NCBI GenBank assembly: GCA_021812985.1
Contig: JAKAMG010000025.1
Location: forward strand, 1 to 44,057
Length of the DNA: 44,057 nucleotides
Direction of reading: 5' to 3'
From: Bacteroidota bacterium
Lineage (GTDB): Bacteria > Bacteroidota > Ignavibacteria > Kryptoniales > JAKASW01
Part shown: in pieces, positions 2,218 through 21,736 of the stretch
Layout of the letters: each line of letters begins with the position of its first letter
How positions within the stretch are numbered: the stretch's first letter is position 1
Position numbers and translations under genes: made by a program
The notes under the pieces: model-generated
The model's database searches: none
Told to the model about the DNA's origin: nothing
The model's input: the letters and a program-made list of their open reading frames with translations, nothing else

Positions 2218-2901
2218 ATGAAAAGTGTCTTGGTCGTTGACGACGAGAAGGATATAGTCCAGCTTATCCGCTACAACCTTGAACGGGAAGGTTTCAAGGT
2301 CGAATCGGCTTTGGATGGAAATGAGGCGCTGAAGAAGGCGGCCGAAGCGAAGCCTGACCTTATACTCCTCGACATCATGTTGCCCGGAAAGGATGGCTAC
2401 GAAGTTATTAAGTCTCTCAACCAGAGTGAGAAGACTGCCAACATTCCGGTCATATTTCTTACGGCAAAGAGCGCGGAGTTCGACGAGGTCCTCGGGCTGG
2501 AACTGGGCGCGGATGATTATATCGTGAAGCCGATCAGCCCAAGAAAACTCATCTCCAGAATACGCGCAGTCCTCAGGAGGTATGAAGGGGTCAAGTCCGA
2601 GGAGGCGAAGAACTTGGACTTCGGCACCATATCCATAGACAGGGACAGTTACCTCGTGAGCGTTTCGGGGGAGCAGATATTCTTTCCTCGTAAAGAGTTT
2701 GAGATACTCTATTACCTCGCGTCACATGAGGGAAAGGTCGTTACTAGAGAGACCCTTCTGAGCAGGGTTTGGGGGGCGGATGTATACGTTGGTGACAGGA
2801 CGGTGGACGTGCACATCCGGAAGATAAGGGAAAAGCTCGGCAAGCACGCGGCGATGATAGAGACGATCAAAGGCGTTGGGTACAAGTTCAAAGTAGAATG
2901 A
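2218..2901 (+). CDS. phoB: Response regulator, OmpR/PhoB family
   Basis: A 227-residue transcription factor: receiver domain at 1-120 and OmpR-type winged-helix DNA-binding domain at about 130-227. Receiver residues are complete: acidic pair D8/D9, phospho-acceptor D52 (LLDIMLPGKDG), T82 and K104 (DDYIVKP). The C-terminal domain ends VDVHIRKIREKLG and TIKGVGYKF as in PhoB. The ribosome site AAAGGAG precedes the ATG. The gene overlaps the downstream histidine kinase by 4 bases (ATGA) and phoU follows, which supports a phosphate-starvation PhoB rather than another OmpR-type regulator. No Pst transporter gene is in the window. Confidence 0.92.
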   Translation: MKSVLVVDDEKDIVQLIRYNLEREGFKVESALDGNEALKKAAEAKPDLILLDIMLPGKDGYEVIKSLNQSEKTANIPVIFLTAKSAEFDEVLGLELGADDYIVKPISPRKLISRIRAVLRRYEGVKSEEAKNLDFGTISIDRDSYLVSVSGEQIFFPRKEFEILYYLASHEGKVVTRETLLSRVWGADVYVGDRTVDVHIRKIREKLGKHAAMIETIKGVGYKFKVE

Positions 2902-3950
2902 ACCACTTTCTCGATTCATACAAGATCCGGATCACAGTTGCCGCCGCTGCCGGCGTTGTCATATACCTTGTTCTGCTTCTCGTCGGAAGTATCTTCCCGT
3001 TGACGGGTCCAGGGCTCACCCTCCATCTTTTACTAACTGCCTTTGTCGGTACGATGCTGGCTTTTGGTTTCCTTGAAGTACTCGTCGCTTTCAGAAAACG
3101 GCAGACTAAGATTCTAAACATGATAGTTGACGCTCTTCGCAGGATAAGCGCCGGCGATCTGTCGGTCCAGCTCCCTGAGACCGGAGCTATCGAGCTGAGG
3201 CAGGTCAGCAAACTGACGAACCAAATTGTGGGTAATCTGAAGCAGGACATCTCGAAGCTGGAAAAGCTTGAGCGGGTGAGAAGTGAGTTCCTGGCCAACG
3301 TTTCGCACGAGCTGAGGACTCCGATATTCAGCATACAGGGATTCATAGAAACACTGATCGACGGGGCCATCGACGACCCTAAGGTCAATCGGGAATTCCT
3401 TCAGAAAGCTTACGAGCATTCCGTACGCCTGAACACTCTCCTTAACGACCTGATAGAAATTTCCAGGATAGAGAGCGGCGAGATGAGAATGAGCTTCAGG
3501 TATTTCAATCTTCCGGAATTCATGCGGAGTATTGTAGAAGAGCTCGAGCATAAAGCGGAAAAGAAGTCCATTCAAATCGTCTGCCAGCTCCCCGAGCGGG
3601 AGATACTCGTCCTTGGTGACCGCGAAAGGCTTAGGCAGGTCCTTTCAAACCTGATAGACAACTCCATCAAGTACACCGATGACGGAGGAAAGGTAGAAGT
3701 CGGATTCACTGACCTCCAGGGAACCGTCAGGGTGTATGTCAGAGACAACGGAAGCGGTATAGGTGAGGAGCATCTCGGACGTATATTCGAGAGGTTTTAC
3801 AGGGTTGACAAGGACAGGAGCAGAAGTGTGGGAGGAACCGGACTGGGACTTGCCATTGTTAAACACATAATCGAAGCACATAACAGCAGAATCGAGGTAA
3901 GGAGCGAGCTCGGTAAGGGTTCCGAGTTCAGCTTCCTTTTGAAGAAATAA
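2898..3950 (+). CDS. phoR: Sensor histidine kinase, PhoR-like
   Basis: A 350-residue membrane kinase. Two transmembrane helices span about residues 12-32 and 42-64, with almost no periplasmic loop between them. A HAMP-like segment follows (about 65-118), then the dimerisation domain with phospho-acceptor H137 in FLANVSHELRTP, then the ATPase domain with N box NLIDNSIKY, G1 DNGSGIG, F box RFYRVD and G2 GGTGLGLAI. Lacking a sensory loop, it probably reads phosphate through the Pst/PhoU complex, as E. coli PhoR does. No PAS domain is evident, which makes it shorter than E. coli PhoR (431 residues). The ATG overlaps the phoB stop codon, so it is translationally coupled. Confidence 0.9.
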   Translation: MNHFLDSYKIRITVAAAAGVVIYLVLLLVGSIFPLTGPGLTLHLLLTAFVGTMLAFGFLEVLVAFRKRQTKILNMIVDALRRISAGDLSVQLPETGAIELRQVSKLTNQIVGNLKQDISKLEKLERVRSEFLANVSHELRTPIFSIQGFIETLIDGAIDDPKVNREFLQKAYEHSVRLNTLLNDLIEISRIESGEMRMSFRYFNLPEFMRSIVEELEHKAEKKSIQIVCQLPEREILVLGDRERLRQVLSNLIDNSIKYTDDGGKVEVGFTDLQGTVRVYVRDNGSGIGEEHLGRIFERFYRVDKDRSRSVGGTGLGLAIVKHIIEAHNSRIEVRSELGKGSEFSFLLKK

Positions 3951-3967
3951 GATGTATATTTGACGCA

Positions 3968-3983
3968 GGGAAGAAGGCTTCCC
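3968..3983 (+). other. Small hairpin between phoR and phoU
   Basis: GGGAAG-AAGG-CTTCCC, a perfect 6-bp stem with a 4-base loop, 18 bases after the phoR stop. There is no T-run, so it is not an intrinsic terminator. It could stabilise an mRNA end or modulate the ratio of phoU to phoBR. Confidence 0.35.
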
Positions 3984-4005
3984 TCGCATTAAAGGAGAGA
4001 GATAA

Positions 4006-4671
4006 ATGCACAGACATTTCGAAGATTTACTGGAGGGATTGAGAGTAAACCTGATCAAGATGGGTAGCCTCGTCGACGAACAGCTCGACCTGGCTTTCCG
4101 TGCACTCCACGACAGAGATCTTCAGGCGACGACAAAAGTTTACGAGACCGAAAAGAAAGTCAACGATTTCGACAATTTGCTCGACCAGCAGGTAGACGAG
4201 ATCATGGCACTCGAGCAGCCAGTCGCCGCCGACCTTCGTCTGGTGGTTTCAGCGATAAAGATGAACCATGAGCTGGAGCGGATCGGAGATGTCGCGGTTA
4301 ACATAGCTCAGAGAGTCGAGCCGCTGAGGGATTTTCCCGAGCTTGTGCGCAAAACCGCCATACTTGAGATGGGCGATGTGGCGAGGAGGATGGTTCATGA
4401 CAGCATCGATTCATTCATACATGCTGACGCCGAGCTGGCGAGAAGGATTTGCAAGCAGGATGACGTGGTTGACGAAATGAACAGGCAGAAATTCAGATTT
4501 GTCATAGATGAAATGAAAAAGGACCCGGCGGTCGTTGAGCCGGGTGCGCACTTGATTGTAGCTTTGAAACACATTGAGCGGATAGCAGACCACGCGACAA
4601 ACATCGCGGAGGATGTGGTGTTCCTGGTTGACGCTAAGGTGATCAAGCACCACGCTGCGGATAAAGGCTGA
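4006..4671 (+). CDS. phoU: Phosphate-signalling protein PhoU
   Basis: A 221-residue all-helical cytosolic protein made of two PhoU repeats (about 10-100 and 115-210). Metal-binding signature stretches are present: ETEKKVNDFDNLLDQQVDEI in the first half and ERIADHATNIAEDVVF in the second, with the paired E-x-I-G/A-D motifs ELERIGD and HIERIAD. PhoU links phosphate transport status to the PhoR kinase. It sits 55 bases behind phoR with a strong AAAGGAG ribosome site. The length matches the family. Confidence 0.95.
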   Translation: MHRHFEDLLEGLRVNLIKMGSLVDEQLDLAFRALHDRDLQATTKVYETEKKVNDFDNLLDQQVDEIMALEQPVAADLRLVVSAIKMNHELERIGDVAVNIAQRVEPLRDFPELVRKTAILEMGDVARRMVHDSIDSFIHADAELARRICKQDDVVDEMNRQKFRFVIDEMKKDPAVVEPGAHLIVALKHIERIADHATNIAEDVVFLVDAKVIKHHAADKG

Positions 4672-4799: not shown

Positions 4800-6854
4800 A
4801 TGCTTTTTAGGAAAAACCAGGGTCCCCGACCCAGCTCGCCCCCACCACAGGACTCCCAACGGAACGAGGTCGCGGCGCATCTTCGCATGGCCGATAAGTA
4901 TATACGCGAAGGAAAACTTGTCGAGGCGAAGGGTGAGTTGGATGCCGTTCACGAGGTTGAACCCAACAACGTTTACGCCCTTGCGCTTGAAGAGCGCAGG
5001 CAAGCCATGGAGACTGCCGCAGCCAGTCCGAAAGAGAAGCCAGAGCCACCACAGCCGAGCAATGAGCCCGAGGCGATTCCCCCCGCGACAGAGGCACTCT
5101 CCCAGCCGAGCTTTGATGAAGCTGAAATCAGGCGGGAAATAGAGACGAGGCTAAAGGAGGAGTTCGACAAAAAATTCACCGACGAGATTAGAAAAGCGGA
5201 GCAGAGGATTGCGGACGCGCTGAAGAAGGAGCGCGAATGGCAGGAGGCGGAGCGGGCCTCGCTCATCGCCAATCTCGAGAAGGAAAGGGAGAAATTCAGG
5301 CGCGACCTCGAAAGAGAATCGAAGGAAAAGTTCGAGATTGAGATTGGGAAGATGGAAGCCTCGTACAGACAGCAGCTCGCTGCTGAACGGAAGAAAGCGG
5401 AAGAGGACACCCGTTCCGAGATGAGCTCCCTCTATGAGAAGTCGATGCTCGAGTTGAAGGAGGCCGCGGTCAGGGAAAAAAGAAGCCTTCTGGAGAAAGA
5501 GCGTCGGGCCATCGATGAAAGCCGCAAGCAGATGGAAGCTGAATTTGAAAAGAGACTCTCATCTGAGCTGAACAAGGTAAAGACGTCAACCAAGGAAGAG
5601 CAGGAAAGAGAGCGCGAAAAACAGGCCGAGGCAACCCGACAAAGGCTCCAGATGGAGTTTGAACAGAACCTCGACGCCGAGAAGAACCGGATTGAAGAGC
5701 AAATCAAATCTCAGCAGGCCGAAATAGAACGGGTCTACGAGGAGAGGTACAAGCGGCTCGAAGCGGAGACTCAGGCTGAGCTTCAGAAAAGGCTCGATGA
5801 AATCAGACGGAACGAACAAATTGAATTCGAACGCAGAAACACGGAGTTGCGGAGCCAGCTTGAGGCAGAGTACGAAAAGAGACTCGTCGCCGAACTCGCT
5901 AAGGAAAGGCAAAAGGTCGAAAGGGAAATCGAGACCGAGCTCACCGAACACCGCACAAGGCTGGAAACTGACCGGAAGAGCATCGTCGATGAAGAACAGC
6001 GAAAGCTCGACGAAGCCAGAAAATCCATGACAGCGGAGATGGAACAGGAGGTCGCGAGGAGGACTTCGGAGGCGAAAAGCTCCGCTGAGGCCAGCTTTGA
6101 GGAAAAGCTGAAATTGCTCGGGCTCAAGCTCCCGGATACCAAGGAAGAGAAACTGAGAATTTACATGAGCCGTCTCCGGGATGCGTGGTCTTCTCCTCCC
6201 CTTACCGCTGATGTCGCAAGGGCACTCATGCAGCTGAGGGACGTCCTTGGCCTTTCTTTCGAAGACCACATAGAGTGCGAAAGCGAGATAAGGCTCCAGG
6301 TCTATGTGACCGAGGTCGAGAAGGAAATTAAAAAGGGCGCGGTTACGCCGAACGACGAGAGTGCTCTGAACATACTGAAACAGAAATACCAGATTACGTC
6401 TGAGGAATCGACCAGGCTTGAGCCTCACATACTTGCCGCATTCAAGCGGGCGGTGATGAAGGCCGTTATCCTGGTTGTCGATGACGAAGAGATCTTCCTC
6501 GATTCCGTGAAGCCAGTGCTCGAAGGGTACGGCTACAGTGTCCTGACCAAGCAAAGTCCTACGGATGCGCTCAAACTCCTCGAATCAACTAACGTTGATA
6601 TGATCATTTCAGATGTCATGTTTTCTGGCACGGAGGGGGACGGTTTTTCCTTCTACGAGAGAGCCCAGAAGATACCCCATCTCAAAAAGGTGCCGTTCAT
6701 ACTGATGAGCGGTATGCATGAAAGCTTTTTTGTTAGAACCGGGATTCAGCTGGGAGTTGATGACTACCTGACAAAGCCCGTGGACCCCGACATGTTGGCC
6801 GCCGTTGTCGAAGGAAAGCTGAAGAAATACCGGTCTTTGAGGGAAGGGGACTGA
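4800..6854 (+). CDS. TPR/long coiled-coil protein with C-terminal receiver domain
   Basis: A 684-residue cytosolic protein of unusual build. Residues 22-70 look like one or two TPR helices (MADKYIREGKLVEAKGEL). Residues 100-435 are an almost unbroken, highly charged Glu/Lys/Arg coiled coil. Residues 440-545 hold two tandem helical modules of about 43 residues with the same pattern (YMSRLRDAW..LT.DVARAL..LRDVLGLS, then YVTEVEKEI..VTPNDESAL..LKQKYQIT). Residues 555-684 are a receiver domain with acidic pair D561/D562, phospho-acceptor D605, S637 and K659, so it is probably phosphorylatable. No output enzyme or DNA-binding domain and no signal peptide. A GGAG site precedes the ATG. It stands alone between pho and the cytochrome cluster. 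A structural or scaffold role regulated by phosphorylation is inference only. Confidence 0.85.
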   Translation: MLFRKNQGPRPSSPPPQDSQRNEVAAHLRMADKYIREGKLVEAKGELDAVHEVEPNNVYALALEERRQAMETAAASPKEKPEPPQPSNEPEAIPPATEALSQPSFDEAEIRREIETRLKEEFDKKFTDEIRKAEQRIADALKKEREWQEAERASLIANLEKEREKFRRDLERESKEKFEIEIGKMEASYRQQLAAERKKAEEDTRSEMSSLYEKSMLELKEAAVREKRSLLEKERRAIDESRKQMEAEFEKRLSSELNKVKTSTKEEQEREREKQAEATRQRLQMEFEQNLDAEKNRIEEQIKSQQAEIERVYEERYKRLEAETQAELQKRLDEIRRNEQIEFERRNTELRSQLEAEYEKRLVAELAKERQKVEREIETELTEHRTRLETDRKSIVDEEQRKLDEARKSMTAEMEQEVARRTSEAKSSAEASFEEKLKLLGLKLPDTKEEKLRIYMSRLRDAWSSPPLTADVARALMQLRDVLGLSFEDHIECESEIRLQVYVTEVEKEIKKGAVTPNDESALNILKQKYQITSEESTRLEPHILAAFKRAVMKAVILVVDDEEIFLDSVKPVLEGYGYSVLTKQSPTDALKLLESTNVDMIISDVMFSGTEGDGFSFYERAQKIPHLKKVPFILMSGMHESFFVRTGIQLGVDDYLTKPVDPDMLAAVVEGKLKKYRSLREGD

Positions 6855-7278
6855 GCCGCTTCCCTCTCGGCGGACATTTAGTCACGCCGGGTACCTTCCT
6901 CCTCTAGCTCTTCTTATTTCACCCCCAGCCCGGTCTCGAGGGCGCACACTGCCCGCTGCGGGGCCCATATCTTCCATATTTCTCCACGCAACACTGTGGA
7001 ACACCCTCCAAAAAATAAACTCCGTCCGGCCCTTGTAAGGAACTAAAAACCCGAATAATTCCTTATGAATACGAATAGGTGTGATACGAAGAATGTTATC
7101 GAAGAGATTCCGCTTCCTGGCTGACAGGCGACACGCACGAAAGTCACGAACGTGGGAGTTGCCAACGAACCAAACCAGGGTCGGCGGCCCTGAAGCCGTA
7201 CGACAGACAAAAGCCAAAACTACGTGTGGTCACGCACGTCCCATCCTATTTCCAAACGACAAAAGGAGTACACTAAAC
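6855..7278. other. Non-coding leader region before the electron-transfer cluster
   Basis: 424 bases without a convincing gene. A long open frame on the plus strand runs from 7081 into the cupredoxin gene, but its first 66 codons look like untranslated leader and the signal peptide begins at 7279. Two hairpins can be drawn: GGCGAC (7127-7132) with GTTGCC (7158-7163), enclosing CACG/CGTG, and CAGGG (7176-7180) with CCCTG (7188-7192). I could not match this to a known riboswitch class. Confidence 0.4.
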
Positions 7279-8016
7279 ATGAATGCAAGTAAATCTTTAG
7301 CTCTGGTCCTTCTCACTCTTGTGGTCGGATCTTCGTTGGCCTTCGGGCAGACCGGTACAGTAAAGGGAACGGTGAAGTTTGCTGGTACACCTCCCACGAT
7401 GACGCCCTACAAGGTGACTTACAACAACAATGTTTGCGGCAACGAGGCGTCTCTCGACAGACTTGTCGTCGGGAAAGACGGTGGCGTTGAGTATGCCGTT
7501 GTTTACATCGAGGGTCTTAAAGGGAAAGCTGAACGCGTCGCCCCCTCCAAATATGTGATAGACCAAAAAGACTGTTCATATAACCCACACGTCCTCATAG
7601 TGAGTCATGGCGAATCTTTCACGGTAGCGAACGCAGACCCGCTGTTCCACAATGTGCACGGTTACTTCGCGTCAAACAACGAGACGGCGTTCAATATAGC
7701 CCAGCCGATCAAAGGAATGAAGTCGGTCCAGCGAGTCAGGAAGCCCGGGATGTACATGATACGATGCGATGTCCACCCGTGGATGAACGCCTACATCTAT
7801 GTCTCAGGTGACGGCTATGCCGCGGCGACCGACAAGGACGGTAATTTTACACTTTCTGATGTTCCCCCTGGAAAGTACAAGTTGGTGATGTGGCACGAAG
7901 GTTGGGACACCAAGGATGTCAGCGGCAAGCCGGAATTTTCAAAGCCGATAGAACAGACACAGGAGATCACTGTGGTTGCAGGACAGACGGCGGACGCGGA
8001 CTTCACGCTGAAGTGA
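7279..8016 (+). CDS. Exported cupredoxin-like protein with carboxypeptidase-regulatory-like fold
   Basis: A 245-residue periplasmic or secreted protein. Signal peptide residues 1-23 (ending SSLAFG-Q). Residues 26-175 look like a cupredoxin: H124 and H127 in PLFHNVHGYF, then C163, H166 and M169 in MIRCDVHPWM, the usual His/Cys/His/Met ligand spacing of a type-1 copper site. Residues 180-245 (ATDKDGNFTLSDVPPGKYKLVMWH) resemble a carboxypeptidase regulatory-like or SpaA beta-sandwich tail. Copper electron carriers of this kind hand electrons between haem proteins, which fits the two cytochrome genes behind it. I start at the ATG at 7279, with AAAGGAG 10 bases upstream and an immediate signal peptide. 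Copper binding is inferred from ligand pattern only. Confidence 0.82.
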   Translation: MNASKSLALVLLTLVVGSSLAFGQTGTVKGTVKFAGTPPTMTPYKVTYNNNVCGNEASLDRLVVGKDGGVEYAVVYIEGLKGKAERVAPSKYVIDQKDCSYNPHVLIVSHGESFTVANADPLFHNVHGYFASNNETAFNIAQPIKGMKSVQRVRKPGMYMIRCDVHPWMNAYIYVSGDGYAAATDKDGNFTLSDVPPGKYKLVMWHEGWDTKDVSGKPEFSKPIEQTQEITVVAGQTADADFTLK

Positions 8017-8088
8017 GCGAGCTCATCTAATCTCTGAAGGACAGTTAGGTCGAAAGTAATACTTAAGCACAAATCTATCGGAGGTAAC

Positions 8089-9300
8089 ATGAAGCTTGAT
8101 TTTTCCAGGAGCCTCTTCCTTGCGGGTCTGACTATTGTTCTCGTCGGTCTGCAGAGCAGCAACTCGATGGCCATCCCGCTCTTTGCCAGAAAGTACCACG
8201 TGAGCTGTTTCAGATGTCACACCGTCCCGCCGGTACTGAATGACTTTGGAAGAAGATTCCAAATAAACGGGTACCAGCTTCCCGGCACTGACGAAGCCCA
8301 GCCGATCTGGGCGCAGGAGCCGCTTTCACTATCTTTTGTGTTCTATCCCTCTTTCGTCTCGGCGCACACGGTCACAACGGTCGGAAATAACAAGACCACT
8401 AGCGACCAATCGACGTTCGAGCCCAGCGGCCTCGACCTGTTCACGGCAGGCACAATAGCAAAGCATTTGAGCTACTTCCTTGCAGCGCCTATAGGTATTA
8501 ACGGGCCAGGTCAGTACTCCCCGTCGATCGAGACCATGAGCATAATGTTCAACAATCTCGCCGGTCCCGACGGGCAGAGCAACTTGAATTTCAGGTTCGG
8601 ACGGTATCGTTTGTGGAATACGTTCCCGAATAACACCTCGCTGGTCGAGTCCGCGGACTATCTCATATACGACTATGACCCGGCACAGGGATCACTTCTT
8701 ATTGCCGAGCCTCAGTGGGCGGCGTCGGTGTACGGATTTCTCCCCCAGCTGATGGATGGTCTAAGGTATGAGGCCGCTATCAGTGATGGGACAGACGGTG
8801 GCGACCCATTGAAGACCAACCAGGCCACATTTCTAATGCTTGAGCAGACGGAATATGTGGATAATGCCCCATTCAGGCTTGGCGTTTACTACTACGGCGG
8901 GAAGGAGTTGACGTCCGGTGGTGCACCTGACAAACTCGCCAGGACGGGGTTCGCCGTGGAGGCAAACGACCCCTGGACGAAGCGTTTCGATCTTTCGTTC
9001 CAGTACATGAGCGCCACGGACGACAACATCGGCGGAGTCAAGCAGACCATGAACGGAGGTTTTGTGGGGCTAAATGTGCTACTCGTCCCGGAGAAGCTAT
9101 TCGTGTACGGACGATATGATTTCACCAAGGTGAAGGAGACATCTGAGAAGCAAAATCAATACACGGGAGGCATCCGGTACCACTTCGCGCCAAACGTCGG
9201 TGCGTATGCCGAGCTGAGTTTCCTCGACGATAACACGCCCGCAGCACTCACAGATACCAAGACCACGCTCTCCACTCTGGGCGTGATGGTAGGATTCTGA
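8089..9300 (+). CDS. Cyc2-like outer-membrane porin-cytochrome fusion (monohaem)
   Basis: A 403-residue protein with signal peptide (1-27), one haem-attachment motif C40-F-R-C43-H44, and then a long aromatic-rich, beta-strand-dense region (about 80-403) ending in phenylalanine like an outer-membrane barrel. The N-terminus IPLFARKYHVSC, then CHTVPPVLNDFGRRF and INGY, strongly recalls the cytochrome plug of Cyc2, the fused cytochrome-porin of iron-oxidising bacteria: FAR before the haem site and FGR..F...GY after it. Ribosome site GGAGG before the ATG. It sits between the cupredoxin and the dihaem cytochrome genes, so the three may form one electron path. The resemblance is by motif; the barrel strand count and true Cyc2 membership cannot be fixed by eye. 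Confidence 0.75.
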   Translation: MKLDFSRSLFLAGLTIVLVGLQSSNSMAIPLFARKYHVSCFRCHTVPPVLNDFGRRFQINGYQLPGTDEAQPIWAQEPLSLSFVFYPSFVSAHTVTTVGNNKTTSDQSTFEPSGLDLFTAGTIAKHLSYFLAAPIGINGPGQYSPSIETMSIMFNNLAGPDGQSNLNFRFGRYRLWNTFPNNTSLVESADYLIYDYDPAQGSLLIAEPQWAASVYGFLPQLMDGLRYEAAISDGTDGGDPLKTNQATFLMLEQTEYVDNAPFRLGVYYYGGKELTSGGAPDKLARTGFAVEANDPWTKRFDLSFQYMSATDDNIGGVKQTMNGGFVGLNVLLVPEKLFVYGRYDFTKVKETSEKQNQYTGGIRYHFAPNVGAYAELSFLDDNTPAALTDTKTTLSTLGVMVGF

Positions 9301-9315
9301 GGAAAGGAGATGATC

Positions 9316-10110
9316 ATGCATTTAAATGTCAAGAAAACAGCACTGTTTTCGATGTTCGTACTCTTGACCGTGGGGCTCTACTCTTGCGCGACAAGTTATA
9401 ATGGTTCCGACGAAGTGAGCGTCGCAAGGGGAGCCGCGGTCTATCATGAGGCGTGCGCGCCGTGCCACGGCGACAACGGTGACGGAAGCGGTCCCGCCTC
9501 AGTATCGCTTGCGACCAAACCCAGGGACTTCAACCTCGGCGTGTTCAAGTTCAGGAGCACGGCCTCTGGAGAGCTACCTACAGATTACGACCTTCTGAGA
9601 ATAATCAATTCGGGCATTTACCACACTGCGATGCCTTCATTCGCCCAGATGAGCATAGCCGATCAGTATTCAGTCGTCCAGTACATCAAGACTCTCTCTC
9701 CGGTGTTCAGCGACTCCACGCAGTATCCGCTTGACACGGTTAAGGTGTCTACTCCGATTCCGTACACTTACGACAGCATCGAGCGGGGTAGGCAGGTCTA
9801 CCTGGAAATGCACTGCTGGAGCTGTCACGGCATAACCGGGGAAGGGAACGGCCCCTCTGCCGCCACTGTCACGGATGATCAGGGCAATCCGATTCAGCCG
9901 ACGAATCTGACACATGCCTGGGACATTAAAGTTGGAAGGACACGCGAGAAGGTGTATCTCATCTTCAGCACGGGGTTGAATGGTACACCTATGCCTTCAT
10001 ACGCCCAAACCCTTTCCGACAACGAAAGATGGGACCTGGCGAATTACGTCTACTCACTATCTCACACTGACAGGTATTATGACGGTAAGCAGTTGAGCAA
10101 CACTCAATAA
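9316..10110 (+). CDS. Dihaem c-type cytochrome lipoprotein
   Basis: A 264-residue lipoprotein: signal sequence with lipobox GLYSC (lipid-modified C24). Two cytochrome-c domains follow: CAPCH (C47, C50, H51) with axial Met in HTAMPSF (M106), and CWSCH (C167, C170, H171) with axial Met in GTPMPSY (M226). It would be membrane-anchored on the periplasmic side (or outer-membrane inner leaflet) and shuttle electrons. An ATG at 9310 touches the AGGAG site directly, whereas the ATG at 9316 has a 6-base gap, so I choose 9316. It lies 15 bases after the Cyc2-like gene, almost certainly co-transcribed. It is followed by a terminator-like hairpin. Confidence 0.9.
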   Translation: MHLNVKKTALFSMFVLLTVGLYSCATSYNGSDEVSVARGAAVYHEACAPCHGDNGDGSGPASVSLATKPRDFNLGVFKFRSTASGELPTDYDLLRIINSGIYHTAMPSFAQMSIADQYSVVQYIKTLSPVFSDSTQYPLDTVKVSTPIPYTYDSIERGRQVYLEMHCWSCHGITGEGNGPSAATVTDDQGNPIQPTNLTHAWDIKVGRTREKVYLIFSTGLNGTPMPSYAQTLSDNERWDLANYVYSLSHTDRYYDGKQLSNTQ

Positions 10111-10557: not shown

Positions 10558-12822
10558 TTAGTCTCTCCATAGATACTGCAGCTTTATGAAGAATTGTCGG
10601 GCAGTGGGGACTATGCCATACGGCTGGCCGTACTCTTCCAGACTGTGCGTCGAACCGGCGTAGAAAATGGTGAAGGGGTTCAGCTTGTAGCTGAAAAGGG
10701 GATCCACTTCAAACTGGTTCGAGAACTTGTCGTATTGGCCTATCAACCTGAGGAACACCTTGTTGCTGAACTGATAAATTCCTTCCAGACGTGTTATGTA
10801 TCCGTCGAAGAGAAGTTCGCCTCCAACCACATTCGAAAGCCTCGAGCGTGAATAGTCTATCGTCAGAGTGAGCCTATCGGTGGGTTTCAGCACCATCTCC
10901 GCATCCAGATTATGACCTTTGCCGAGTGCCGGCTGGTCGGCTCGATATATGAATCTTCCGAACGCTCCGTTAAGATTGAACGAAAGCATGCTTACCGGAT
11001 TGGACTGAATACTGAAGGTCCATCTGTTGACCCTCACGAAGCTCACTGAGTGAAAGAGTTCATTGTTGACCGCGAGATAACTGACGACCAGCTGAGTCTG
11101 ACTCTTCAGATTGAAGTAGGCCGTGGGGACGAGCCACAGCTCCTTCCGGGTGTTCTGGTAATCGAAATGCACTCCCGACTCAAGGTCAAGCCCCCAATTG
11201 TCAACAAGTGCGGAGTTGGGGTAAAAAGATATTGAATGTTCCATATCGGCGGTGCGCAGGTCGTTCGAGAAGATATACCCATCCTCTGCCTGGAATGTTG
11301 GCGACAAATCCCTGTAGGTGAATCTGAAACTGTATCTTCTCGCGTCCCTCCGGAAATCAGCTTGGAAGCCCGTTCCGTTATATTCCTGTCCGTCGAAGGC
11401 CTTCGTAAACATGGTTGGACCGTAAAACGACGGATCGGAGACGATGTTCGTGTCGTTCAACTCGCGTGTGTTGGACATAAGAAATTGTCCGTCGAACGTG
11501 TAATTCGTATGGAAGAAGATGTTCCAGTCGACACCGCCCACATAATTGTGGGCATTGGTGAAATTCCTGGTCGTTGCAAGTGCGCCGACAAATGACTGCA
11601 GCCCAAAGTTATACCGCGCGCGCAGGATGTTGGAGAATGATTTGTACGACGTGGAGAACGTATTATCGCCGTTGTTGTCCGTGACGCTTCCGTCCTCGCC
11701 GGCGAGTATGAAGGGAGAATTCCGGTCTTCGGCGCCCAGGTAGGCGATGGACCACGGACCCGATTTGTCGACTACCTTGGCTGCCGCGATCGGATTGCTG
11801 ATAGTCCTGGAGTAGTACGCCTGAATTTTTGTCGTGAATATATCGCTCCCGTCCATGAAGAACGGACGCTTCTCGGGGTAGAAGAGGGCGAAGGCGTTGT
11901 TTACGCTTATCTGAGCGGCGTCCGTTTCCACCTGACTGAAGTCAGGATTCACCACGCCTTCCAGCGAGAGACTCGGATTAGGTGCCAGCTTTACTCCCAG
12001 GCCGACCCGACCGGTTACAGGGCCGTTGGAAAATCCTGAGTTGGGATTAGAATTATCGTTTATGTTGCCCGTCTCCACTCCCATAGCGTAAGGGAGGAGT
12101 TCGACGGAACCAGTAGACTGAAGTCCTTTAAGCCCCAGGAGAGTCCCTGTCTGGCACAGCAGGCAGCCGTTGTTGAGATCCAGGTGAACCCACGATATTT
12201 GTATGCGGCTGGACCTCGGAAGATTCCGGAAGAATTCAATTCCCCAGTTCTGGTCATCAGACGCGGGGAACCTCAAGCTTTGAAACGGAATTGCCATCTC
12301 CGCGGTGTAGCCGCTGTCGTTCATTGCGGCTTTTGAGTACCAGACCATGTCGAAACTCATATCCTCATTGTTGCCGTTTCTGAGTCCGTCCATTTGCACT
12401 CCAACAGGGTTGACGAATACCTCATACGCGCGCTGGTGATCATCGTAGGTGTCCAGTATGACTCCGATAAAGTCATCGTCGAATGCATTGTCCCTGTCTG
12501 AGAGGTGGGCTCGTATTTCGGAAGGATGGTTGTCGAAGCAGTGGAAACCGAAGTACAGAAATCTTGAATTGTAAAGGACTCTTACCGTCGTCTTCTGAGG
12601 CGCTGGCGTGTTGTTCCCCGGCTGTATTTCATAGTCCAGTTCTGTAGTGGGCGCTTCCCTCCAACGCGGGTCGGTCAGTTTGCCCGAGAGATCTATATCC
12701 CCCTTAATTCGAATGGGTGTGTAGACAAACTTATTTTGGTTGGAGGTCGTGTCTTTTTCCTGCCCGAGTATGGTGGAGCACGTAGCAGCAAGGAGAACAA
12801 ACGCGATAAATGTACTTCTCAA
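10558..12822 (-). CDS. DUF5916 outer-membrane protein with CBM9-like domain
   Basis: A 754-residue exported protein. Signal peptide about 1-20. Residues 35-230 resemble a family-9 carbohydrate-binding-like domain (IKGDIDLSGKLTDPRWREAP, later FDDDFIGVILDTYDDHQRAYEVFVNP and YTAEMAIPFQSLRFP). The rest is a beta-rich DUF5916 region with YPEKRPFFMDGSDIF and many alternating aromatic strands, probably an outer-membrane barrel. The function of the family is unknown; it is common in Bacteroidota and relatives. The start is TTG at 12822, with AGGA 7 bases upstream. It is the last gene of a long minus-strand run, separated from the M1 peptidase by a large hairpin, so probably its own unit. Confidence 0.85.
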   Translation of the reverse strand: MRSTFIAFVLLAATCSTILGQEKDTTSNQNKFVYTPIRIKGDIDLSGKLTDPRWREAPTTELDYEIQPGNNTPAPQKTTVRVLYNSRFLYFGFHCFDNHPSEIRAHLSDRDNAFDDDFIGVILDTYDDHQRAYEVFVNPVGVQMDGLRNGNNEDMSFDMVWYSKAAMNDSGYTAEMAIPFQSLRFPASDDQNWGIEFFRNLPRSSRIQISWVHLDLNNGCLLCQTGTLLGLKGLQSTGSVELLPYAMGVETGNINDNSNPNSGFSNGPVTGRVGLGVKLAPNPSLSLEGVVNPDFSQVETDAAQISVNNAFALFYPEKRPFFMDGSDIFTTKIQAYYSRTISNPIAAAKVVDKSGPWSIAYLGAEDRNSPFILAGEDGSVTDNNGDNTFSTSYKSFSNILRARYNFGLQSFVGALATTRNFTNAHNYVGGVDWNIFFHTNYTFDGQFLMSNTRELNDTNIVSDPSFYGPTMFTKAFDGQEYNGTGFQADFRRDARRYSFRFTYRDLSPTFQAEDGYIFSNDLRTADMEHSISFYPNSALVDNWGLDLESGVHFDYQNTRKELWLVPTAYFNLKSQTQLVVSYLAVNNELFHSVSFVRVNRWTFSIQSNPVSMLSFNLNGAFGRFIYRADQPALGKGHNLDAEMVLKPTDRLTLTIDYSRSRLSNVVGGELLFDGYITRLEGIYQFSNKVFLRLIGQYDKFSNQFEVDPLFSYKLNPFTIFYAGSTHSLEEYGQPYGIVPTARQFFIKLQYLWRD

Positions 12823-18160: not shown

Positions 18161-19954
18161 CTATACGCTCTTATGAAAGCCCTGAATGGGCCTTACGCCA
18201 AGGCTTCCGGCCTGAAGCGATTTTATGGCCTTGACGGCAGCGGATGCGGCAGAGAGCGTAGTTGCGAACGAAACCTTGTGCTCGATGGCAGCCCATCCGA
18301 TAGCAAATTCATCGTAGCGTGCCTCTTCTCCAAGCGGGGTGTTGATGATGAATTGTATCTTGCCGTTCTTTATCGAATCGACTATGTTAGGTCTTCCTTC
18401 GCTGACCTTGTATATCTTCTCGTTGGCTATGCCGTTCCGGTCGAAGAACTTTGCGGTGCCTTCAGTGGCGAGTATTCTGAAACCGAGTTCGATGAAGCTG
18501 CGCGCGATATCGACAGTGGCGTCGTTCTTGTCGTTGTCGTTCACGCTGAAAAGTACCGTGCCGGATGTCGGGAGGGGATTGCCGGCCGCAGCCTGAGACT
18601 TCGCGTAAGCGGCGCCGAAGTTTGTGTCGATGCCCATCACCTCGCCTGTCGACCTCATCTCGGGGCCGAGGAACACCTTCACACGCGTGAACCTGTTGAA
18701 CGGAAAGACAGCCTCTTTGATTGCAATGTGCCGGAAATTGCCGTTCACGGGAGTTACATCCATGTCCTTCAGCTTCTTGCCTAGCATTATCTTCGCGGCG
18801 ATTTTCGCGAGAGGAAGCCCGATGCTTTTGCTGACGAACGGAACCGTGCGGCTCGCGCGCGGATTTACTTCTATTACGTAAACGACATCGTCCTTCATCG
18901 CAAACTGGATGTTCATGAGTCCGACGACGTTCAGCGATTTTGCGAGCATGACGGTGTATTCGCGCAGCTCGTTCAGGCATTTCTCGGTTATCATGTAGGG
19001 GGGGATGACTGCGGCACTGTCGCCTGAATGTATGCCTGCCTCCTCGATGTGTTCCATGATAGCGCCGATGACTACGTCTTCACCGTCAGCCACGGCGTCG
19101 ACATCAAACTCGAAGGCGTCCTCGAGGAACCTGTCGATGAGCACCGGCTTGTCCGGGGAGATGTCTGCGGCGGTCTGCATGTAGTTCCTCAGCGACTCCT
19201 CGTTGTAGCAGATCTCCATCGCGCGCCCGCCGAGAACATATGATGGCCTTACCAGCACGGGGTAGCCTATGTACGAGGCGACGTCGACGGCCTCAGCGAC
19301 GGAGTATGCCGTGCCGAATTGAGGGTGAGGGATCTTCAGGTGGCGGAGGAGCTCGCCGAACCTCTTCCTGTCTTCTGCGATATCTATCCCTTCCGAACTC
19401 GTCCCGAGAAGCCTGACGCCCGCTTCCTCAAGGGACTTGGCGAGCCTGAGAGGAGTCTGTCCTCCGAAGCTGACTATCACTCCCTCGGGTTCCTCGGCCT
19501 CGATGACGTTCATTACATCTTCGAAAGTCAGCGGCTCAAAGTAAAGCTTGTCGGCGGTGTCGTAGTCCGTAGACACAGTCTCCGGATTGCAATTGACCAT
19601 GATGGCCTCATAGCCCTCTTCGCGGGCCGCCATAACGCCGTGTACGCAGCAGTAGTCGAACTCGATCCCCTGGCCGATTCTGTTCGGGCCGCTCCCGAGG
19701 ATGATCACCTTCTTCCTGCCGCTCCGTCTCGATTCGTTTTCCTCGGCGTAGGTCGAGAAATGGTATGGGGTCTCGGCCTCAAATTCCGCGGCGCAAGTAT
19801 CGACCGTCTTGAAAACAGGGAGTACGTTTAGTGTCTTTCTCAAGTCCCTGATGGCGGCATCCGTCGTTCCGAGTATCTCGGCGAGCTGCTTGTCTGAATA
19901 GCCGAGTTGTTTTGCTTTTAGTAGTGTTTCTGCGTCTATTGGTCTTTTCTTCAT
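18161..19954 (-). CDS. carB2: Carbamoyl-phosphate synthase large subunit, C-terminal half (split carB)
   Basis: Carries the half that makes carbamoyl phosphate from carbamate and ATP: helical linker (TLLKAKQLGYSDKQLAEILG), conserved VDTCAAEFEAETPYHFSTY, second ATP-grasp domain (VLVRPSYVLGGRAMEICY, then NIQFAMKDDVVYVIEVNPRASRTVPFVSK) and the C-terminal MGS-like allosteric domain (ILATEGTAKFFDRNGI). Normal CarB is one chain of about 1070 residues; here the first half is a separate frame that ends just upstream. The start is uncertain: the ATG at 19954 (597 residues) begins right before the conserved helix, while a TTG at 20008 would overlap the upstream gene by 29 bases. Neither has a strong ribosome site. 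Confidence 0.9.
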   Translation of the reverse strand: MKKRPIDAETLLKAKQLGYSDKQLAEILGTTDAAIRDLRKTLNVLPVFKTVDTCAAEFEAETPYHFSTYAEENESRRSGRKKVIILGSGPNRIGQGIEFDYCCVHGVMAAREEGYEAIMVNCNPETVSTDYDTADKLYFEPLTFEDVMNVIEAEEPEGVIVSFGGQTPLRLAKSLEEAGVRLLGTSSEGIDIAEDRKRFGELLRHLKIPHPQFGTAYSVAEAVDVASYIGYPVLVRPSYVLGGRAMEICYNEESLRNYMQTAADISPDKPVLIDRFLEDAFEFDVDAVADGEDVVIGAIMEHIEEAGIHSGDSAAVIPPYMITEKCLNELREYTVMLAKSLNVVGLMNIQFAMKDDVVYVIEVNPRASRTVPFVSKSIGLPLAKIAAKIMLGKKLKDMDVTPVNGNFRHIAIKEAVFPFNRFTRVKVFLGPEMRSTGEVMGIDTNFGAAYAKSQAAAGNPLPTSGTVLFSVNDNDKNDATVDIARSFIELGFRILATEGTAKFFDRNGIANEKIYKVSEGRPNIVDSIKNGKIQFIINTPLGEEARYDEFAIGWAAIEHKVSFATTLSAASAAVKAIKSLQAGSLGVRPIQGFHKSV

Positions 19955-19979
19955 TCGTTCGGGCTCAAATAAAATTTCA

Positions 19980-21476
19980 TTATCGCTGGTTGGCTTGCGC
20001 TTCAACAAAGAAACTTTCGCGCAGGGAATTTTCGAAGTCGACTATCTCTTTTATGTTTTTCAGGAACCATGGGTCGATCCTGGTCAGGTCGTGAATCTCC
20101 TCGACAGAAAGCCCAGCCTGCAGGGCATAGCGGAGGTAGAACAGATTGTCGGACTTCGGCTGTTTTAGTCTGTTCACGATTGCCTTCCTGGCATCGGCGG
20201 ATTTGGGACCTTTGAGCTTTATGACGTCGTACAGGTCCTTTCCGTCTCCACCAATTCCGAACCTTCCTTGTTCGAGCGATCTGAGTGCCTTCTGCAGCGC
20301 CTCCTTGAAATTGCTGCCGAAAGACATGGCCTCGCCGACAGACTTCATCTGTACGCTCAGCGTATCGTCCGCCCCTTTGAATTTTTCGAAGTCCCATCTC
20401 GGTATTTTCACAACGACGTAGTCTATCGACGGCTCGAAGGATGCCGGTGTCTTTTTTGTGATGTCGTTCGGGATCTCGTCGAGGGTATATCCGACCGCGA
20501 GCATTGCGGCGATCTTGGCGATTGGGAAGCCCGTCGCCTTCGAGGCGAGCGCGCTCGATCTCGACACGCGCGGGTTCATCTCGATCACGACCATCCTCCC
20601 GGTCTTCGGATCGACGGCGAACTGTATGTTTGACCCGCCGGTCTCGACTCCGACGGCGCGGATTATCTTCTTGGCCCAGTCTCGCATCTTCTGGTATTCA
20701 CGATCGGTAAGCGTCTGGGAAGGAGCCACCGTGACGGAATCTCCGGTGTGGACCCCCATGGGATCTACGTTCTCGATTGAACATACGATCACGACGTTGT
20801 CTTTCCTGTCGCGCATTACCTCGAGCTCAAACTCTTTCCATCCGAGGACGGACTCTTCAACGAGAATTTCTGAGATGGGGCTGGCCGTCAGTCCGCGTCG
20901 CGCGACGTCCCGGTACTCTTCGATATTGTAGGCCACGCCTCCGCCCATGCCTCCGAGAGTGTACGAAGGGCGAATTATGGCAGGGAAGCCCACGGAGTCG
21001 ATGATGTCCATCGCCTGTTCCATGGTCCTGACGAACCCGCCTTTAGGCACGTCGAGTCCGATGCCGGTCACCGTCTCCTTGAACAGTTCCCTGTCTTCTG
21101 CCTTTTGAATCGCCTTCAGGTTTGCGCCGATCATCTCCACGCCGTGCTTTGCCAGGACTCCGCCCTCGGCCAGGTTGACAGCGATGTTGAGCGCGGTCTG
21201 TCCCCCCATCGTGGGGAGTACGGCGTCCGGCTTCTCGGCTTCGATTATCTTCTCGACAAATTCGGGCGTGATCGGTTCAATGTACGTCACGTCAGCCAGC
21301 TCAGGGTCTGTCATGATTGTGGCGGGGTTGCTGTTTACGAGTATGACTTTGTACCCCAGTTTCCTGAGCACCTTGCATGCCTGTGTTCCGGAATAATCAA
21401 ACTCGCATGCTTGCCCTATGACGATGGGACCGCTACCGATTATGAGAATTGAATTTATGTCAGTGCGTTTAGGCAA
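19980..21476 (-). CDS. carB1: Carbamoyl-phosphate synthase large subunit, N-terminal half (split carB)
   Basis: A 498-residue protein with the carboxyphosphate-forming ATP-grasp half: [25 protein letters not shown] at the start, [17 protein letters not shown] and [33 protein letters not shown] in the ATP-grasp fold, and the end of the oligomerisation domain [20 protein letters not shown]. It stops at TAATGA about where single-chain CarB enters the linker to the second half. Start: TTG at 21476, aligned with the canonical MPKRTDI start and with AGGA 6 bases upstream. No carA (glutaminase subunit) is adjacent. It supplies arginine and pyrimidine synthesis together with carB2. Confidence 0.92.
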
Positions 21477-21736
21477 TCTCAATCCTGATTTTGTGTGCAG
21501 TTAGCCATGAGATGAATAATTGAAAAGGGGGTGGACCGCTCATGGACTTTCGACGTAAAAGTTAATGATCGCGCGGAGTTGAATCAAGGATTCCGTCCCA
21601 AGAGCTTGCTTAATCGAAACGCCGCCGAGTTGTCAAAACAGGGGCGCTGAGTTAACTTTTCACGAGGCAGCGGTCCGTCGCGCTCTGCGTCAGGAGGCAC
21701 TGTAAGCAACCGCGTTCGAAAATTTAGAGGCCAGAC

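Follow-up and report, generated by a model that had tools for sequence, protein, structure and literature searches.

A gene cassette at positions 7279–10110 of the window (the whole 44,057-nucleotide stretch of DNA analysed here) is read as an electron-uptake module feeding periplasmic respiration, a reading to which we assign a probability of about 0.6. The cassette comprises genes for a cupredoxin, a Cyc2-like haem porin (termed Cyc2L) and a dihaem cytochrome, all on the + strand with spacings of 72 and 9 bases, and is an apparent operon. It probably pulls electrons into the cell, and electron uptake would explain the Cyc2 motif, the porin barrel, the partner proteins, the respiratory neighbours in relatives and the exchange with canonical Cyc2 in one genomic slot. 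The initial annotation had described three adjacent genes here, and all three ORFs were found where it had placed them.

7262–7269, + strand: ribosome-binding-site-like AAAGGAGT before ATG 7279 (sequence inspection)
7279–8016, + strand: predicted exported cupredoxin with a C-terminal CarboxypepD_reg domain, 245 aa (Pfam, profile match, AlphaFold2/Foldseek)
8089–9300, + strand: Cyc2L, single-haem porin, 403 aa (Porin_4, E = 1.3e-7; hhalign; tree)
8170–8220, + strand: Cyc2-diagnostic motif AIPLFARKY and haem site CFRCH, residues 28–44 (published motif comparison, alignments)
8317–9297, + strand: predicted outer-membrane β-barrel, about residues 77–403, with C-terminal Phe (AlphaFold2, porin fold matches)
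9310–10110, + strand: dihaem c-type cytochrome, 266 aa, lipobox Cys26, CxxCH at 49–53 and 169–173 (Pfam Cytochrom_C, two stretches)

The mechanical start of the first ORF, GTG 7081, was dropped and the start set at ATG 7279 because the Shine–Dalgarno-like AAAGGAGT lies just upstream of the latter. Promoter and terminator scans gave nothing above chance. The host genome is of the Candidatus Kryptoniota type (3.5 Mb, 64 contigs, 98.95% complete). Upstream of the cassette lie PhoB-, PhoR- and PhoU-like genes (2218–4671, + strand), and in Kryptonium-type genomes a PhoU gene is also found just downstream of the Cyc2L–dihaem pair. A coiled-coil response-regulator gene upstream (4800–6854, + strand) and a DUF5916/CBM9 gene downstream (10558–12822, − strand) flank the cassette in several congeners. 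Elsewhere in the window the carbamoyl-phosphate synthase large subunit is present as two overlapping ORFs in different frames (18161–21482, − strand; 500 and 615 aa), between which its Pfam domains are divided, either a split carB or a frameshift.

Cyc2L and the Cyc2 superfamily

Keffer et al. (2021) give the Cyc2 signature as AXPXFAR[Q/K][T/Y] with CXXCH and PXL, the first element being unique to Cyc2, and their screen required a porin and a minimum length of 365 aa (PMC8406198). The N-terminus of Cyc2L reads AIPLFARKY-HVS-CFRCH-TVPPVL-NDFGRRF-QINGY; AXPXFAR[Q/K][T/Y] lies upstream of the single CXXCH and PXL downstream, so that the monohaem protein with a Cyc2-plug-like N-terminus of the initial annotation carries the published signature. 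At 403 aa, with a C-terminal barrel in the AlphaFold2 model, it also has the length and fused porin of the family, and the motif core is invariant in the alignments. In place of a Cyc2 HMM, a profile–profile comparison (hhalign) was made with 13 other Cyc2-motif proteins, including plasmid-borne ones of Acidithiobacillus ferrooxidans, Caballeronia and Methylocystis. The match was significant both over the full length (E = 1.7e-42) and for the barrel alone (E = 7.4e-23), and the suspicion that only the motif underlies the barrel call was dropped; DUF5916, a control family from the window, gave no match in the same comparison. Judged by these alignments, Cyc2L is a member of the Cyc2 superfamily.

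A tree of 72 rows groups the window protein with its relatives in a single clade of 24 (support 100/100), here named Cyc2L; the protein of locus L068 also counts as a member. The clade is separate and long-branched, and the proteobacterial plasmid Cyc2s fall in another. A profile of the clade scores its members at 330–650 bits and every other Cyc2-motif protein at 119 or less, and the same gap is seen in a 395-genome sample of the phylum (at least 545 versus at most 80 bits). The clade has its own signature, CF[TR]CHTxPPxLN[DE]FGRRFQxNGYQLPGT. Searches of the PDB by phmmer and by profile returned no relative of Cyc2L, none of the NCBIfam models matched it, and the only match in a plasmid search was N-terminal. 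In the Ignavibacteriales, Cyc2 matches, mostly of cluster 3, have been reported together with iron-cycling genes (PMC8478452); no description of the Cyc2L subfamily was found in the literature on Kapabacteria or Kryptonia with cyc2.

The remainder of the protein had been proposed to be an outer-membrane barrel ending in F, and structure prediction bears this out. The AlphaFold2 model (17 sequences; mean pLDDT 63.6, pTM 0.66) is a porin barrel spanning residues 79–402 and resembling PorB (Z = 20.7), OprO (Z = 19.3) and OprP (Z = 18.9), and the terminal F is invariant in a 16-row alignment. OprO and OprP are also the structural homologues given for the Cyc2 of Mariprofundus ferrooxydans (PMC8406198). 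The fold matches are ordinary porins with no Cyc2 structure among them, which does not exclude one. Because the haem-bearing residues 21–76 are modelled with very low confidence (pLDDT below 50, where the model is unreliable), we infer only by analogy that the haem sits within the barrel pore. No conserved Met that could act as distal haem ligand was found in the Cyc2L alignment; outside CXXCH, His is well conserved only at H126 and H365, and either one as the distal ligand would be a guess.

The partner proteins and conservation of the cassette

Pfam identifies the CarboxypepD_reg domain and weak cupredoxin matches in the product of the first gene. Its profile matches amicyanin (E = 1e-4), and its AlphaFold2 model (pLDDT 83) retrieves amicyanin and plastocyanin in Foldseek. 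The ligands suggested when it was first called a copper-protein candidate, H124/H127, C163, H166 and M169, are all invariant in an 11-row alignment; the predicted protein combines the fold with the His, Cys, His and Met ligands of a type 1 cupredoxin.

In the third protein both CxxCH sites are invariant (15-row alignment), as expected of the two-domain haem lipoprotein initially described, whereas the lipobox Cys26, and with it the lipoprotein form, is confined to the window's genus. With its two CXXCH domains and a full-length profile match to PDB 6h5l chain B (E = 1.7e-71), it is assigned as a dihaem cytochrome c. 6h5l chain B is a Kuenenia cytochrome, the redox partner of an HAO-like enzyme; the literature describes a redox partner of the Kuenenia HAO-like enzyme, without the PDB code 6h5l.

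The order of the three genes is kept in Kryptonia, Kapabacteria and some Ignavibacteria genomes. An arrangement unique to the window's genome is thus rejected and, because the order recurs in many genomes, chance does not account for it. Among the named relatives of the cassette, 'Candidatus Kryptoniota bacterium Ww171' and Bacteroidetes-labelled MAGs come first, then Ca. Kryptonium, Chrysopegis and Thermokryptus, and MAGs of Kapabacteria and Ignavibacteria. The dihaem gene lies directly downstream of Cyc2L in all 24 distinct loci with readable downstream sequence. The cupredoxin gene lies upstream in 16 of 25 loci, which are those of the window's genus and most of the Kapabacteria type. The nine Cyc2L genes without it comprise those of the five Kryptonium-type genomes, three from groundwater/permafrost loci, and one paralogue. 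The constant partner of Cyc2L is therefore the dihaem protein, not the cupredoxin, which refines the original, otherwise supported picture of a porin packaged with both carriers. Around some 50 other Cyc2-type loci no dihaem relative scored above 120 bits, many of these loci having only 0.5–1.5 kb of flank.

Respiratory neighbours and candidate acceptors

In several relatives the cassette adjoins respiratory genes. In G007 it follows genes for an ACIII-like complex (molybdopterin-type and NrfD subunits), SCO, a caa3 oxidase and ctaB. In G055 and G028 it is preceded by Rieske and cytochrome b genes and followed by CuNIR, FGE-like and SCO genes, with NosZ also near it in G055; a second Cyc2 is found near the cassette in G028 and in L063. 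Genes for a cation ATPase and a cbb3 oxidase follow it in L060 and L062. In four of five Kryptonium-type genomes the Cyc2L–dihaem genes are preceded by SCO and a COX2/COX1-family pair which may reduce O2 or NO. For the COX2/COX1-family pair of L038 (2185–4269), whose COX1 has no clear HPEVY motif, an NO reductase-like haem-copper enzyme is possible.

Within the window's genus, the slot flanked by the caa3 operon on one side and a nucleoside phosphorylase/transporter block on the other was compared, and the genes on both sides of it are orthologous among the congeners. G002, G006 and G012 carry Rieske–cytochrome b and canonical Cyc2–cytochrome c genes in it, G007 has the Cyc2L cassette there instead, and in G010 it is empty. 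This sharing of a slot with canonical Cyc2, a single case (G007), is the best functional clue short of experiment.

The same neighbourhoods bear on a role in copper and nitrogen-oxide handling, in which porin and cupredoxin would supply copper to CuNIR, NosZ and CuA enzymes and the haems would act in NO sensing or detoxification. Copper enzymes and SCO proteins do recur beside the cassette, and the Cys, His and Met ligands of the cupredoxin are conserved, but the constant partner is a dihaem cytochrome and no copper chaperone, and canonical Cyc2 occupies the same position beside caa3. We regard this role as improbable.

No respiratory gene adjoins the cassette in the window's own genome. No caa3 or cbb3 oxidase and no NosZ was found there, cytochrome bd gave only a distant match, and the one COX1-family protein detected belongs to the NorB type. 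In all twelve other congeners a COX1 scoring as caa3 was detected, so the assembly may have a gap here; unless the assembly lacks an oxidase, O2 is a doubtful acceptor in this genome. Genes for a CuNIR with a haem domain, an FGE-like protein and SCO lie near the NorB-type gene. With neither caa3/cbb3 oxidase nor NosZ found, copper nitrite reductase is the identified candidate acceptor, and nitrite is, from gene content, the best-supported one. A possible second electron-uptake cluster lies on contig 6 (L072, 7722–16803). It has another Cyc2, of the ARQT type, with a monohaem cytochrome; further on come genes for a QrcB-like molybdopterin oxidoreductase, for FeS, NrfD and tetrahaem cytochrome proteins, and for a weak relative of the cupredoxin.

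Cytochrome conduits can in principle run both ways, and sequence gives no direction; the cassette might thus discharge electrons onto acceptors outside the cell, for example Fe(III). Against such outward flow, Cyc2L has a single haem at the outer membrane, the cassette lacks an outer-surface multihaem cytochrome, and its links are to terminal oxidases and nitrite and N2O reductases. We hold it to be very improbable.

Electron donor, proposed function and known systems

For electron uptake, the preferred reading, Cyc2L in the outer membrane would, by analogy with Cyc2, take electrons from an extracellular donor through its single covalent haem and pass them in the periplasm to the cupredoxin and to the dihaem cytochrome, the latter lipid-tethered to a membrane in the window's genus. 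These carriers would deliver them to a periplasm-facing reductase that differs between hosts; the candidates are oxidases of the caa3 and cbb3 types, haem-copper-family enzymes, and the reductases of nitrite (copper type) and N2O. We infer both the inward direction and Fe(II) as donor, the latter being the likeliest by homology to Cyc2. No RuBisCO was found in any of 61 genomes, the window's own included, so the module would provide energy or an electron supply without the Calvin cycle. This counts against the uptake reading, since the best-studied Cyc2 iron oxidisers are autotrophs, as do the nine Cyc2L genes without a cupredoxin, the low-confidence model of the haem region, the lack of respiratory neighbours and of a caa3/cbb3 oxidase in the window's genome, and the dependence of the slot exchange on G007.

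The same conduit might instead serve another donor (other cells, reduced organics or minerals), with no role in iron oxidation. The long branch of the separate Cyc2L clade, its hosts without RuBisCO and the second Cyc2-motif protein carried by most Cyc2L-bearing congeners are consistent with this, and function is uncertain in divergent Cyc2 groups (PMC8406198). However, the biochemically tested Cyc2-type proteins described in PMC8406198 act on Fe(II) and the cassette is linked to no gene for another donor, and we consider such a donor unlikely.

If Fe(II) is the donor, Cyc2L and its constant dihaem partner could form a plug-in uptake module that occurs in Kryptonia, Kapabacteria and Ignavibacteria and is coupled to a different terminal enzyme from host to host; with it, bacteria lacking the Calvin cycle would use O2, nitrite or N2O to respire extracellular Fe(II). 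This wider proposal is tentative. Cyc2 serves as a genetic marker of iron oxidation, although iron oxidation by its divergent branches is only putative. The clear partners of Cyc2L and its natural slot exchange with canonical Cyc2 name concrete candidate redox partners, and the clade extends putative Cyc2-type uptake to Kryptonia and Kapabacteria, coupled to reduction of nitrite, N2O and O2.

Cyc2L shares with the Cyc2 of A. ferrooxidans and M. ferrooxydans (PMC8406198) a signal peptide, the motif, an OprO/OprP-like barrel and a length of about 400 aa, but forms a separate clade with its own signature and constant dihaem partner. The dihaem protein is homologous to 6h5l chain B over its full length; unlike that system, the cassette has no HAO-like gene, and the protein is a lipoprotein in the window's genus. 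With amicyanin and other type 1 cupredoxins, the window's cupredoxin has in common the fold and a C-x2-H-x2-M ligand loop (C-x3-H in some of its relatives), and differs from amicyanin in an additional N-terminal part, where two Cys are invariant, and in the C-terminal CarboxypepD_reg domain. As in the rus operon of Acidithiobacillus (cyc2-cyc1-cup-cox-rus; PMC10654088), a Cyc2-type porin, a c-type cytochrome and a copper protein occur together, and the aa3-type oxidase of that operon is matched in some relatives of the window. The gene order is different, however, and the acceptor modules vary. Cyc1 of the rus operon is of the c4 type (PMC10654088); the dihaem protein here is placed by its PDB match, a Kuenenia cytochrome. 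In contrast to the rus copper protein (PMC10654088) the cupredoxin here is amicyanin-like with a CarboxypepD_reg domain.
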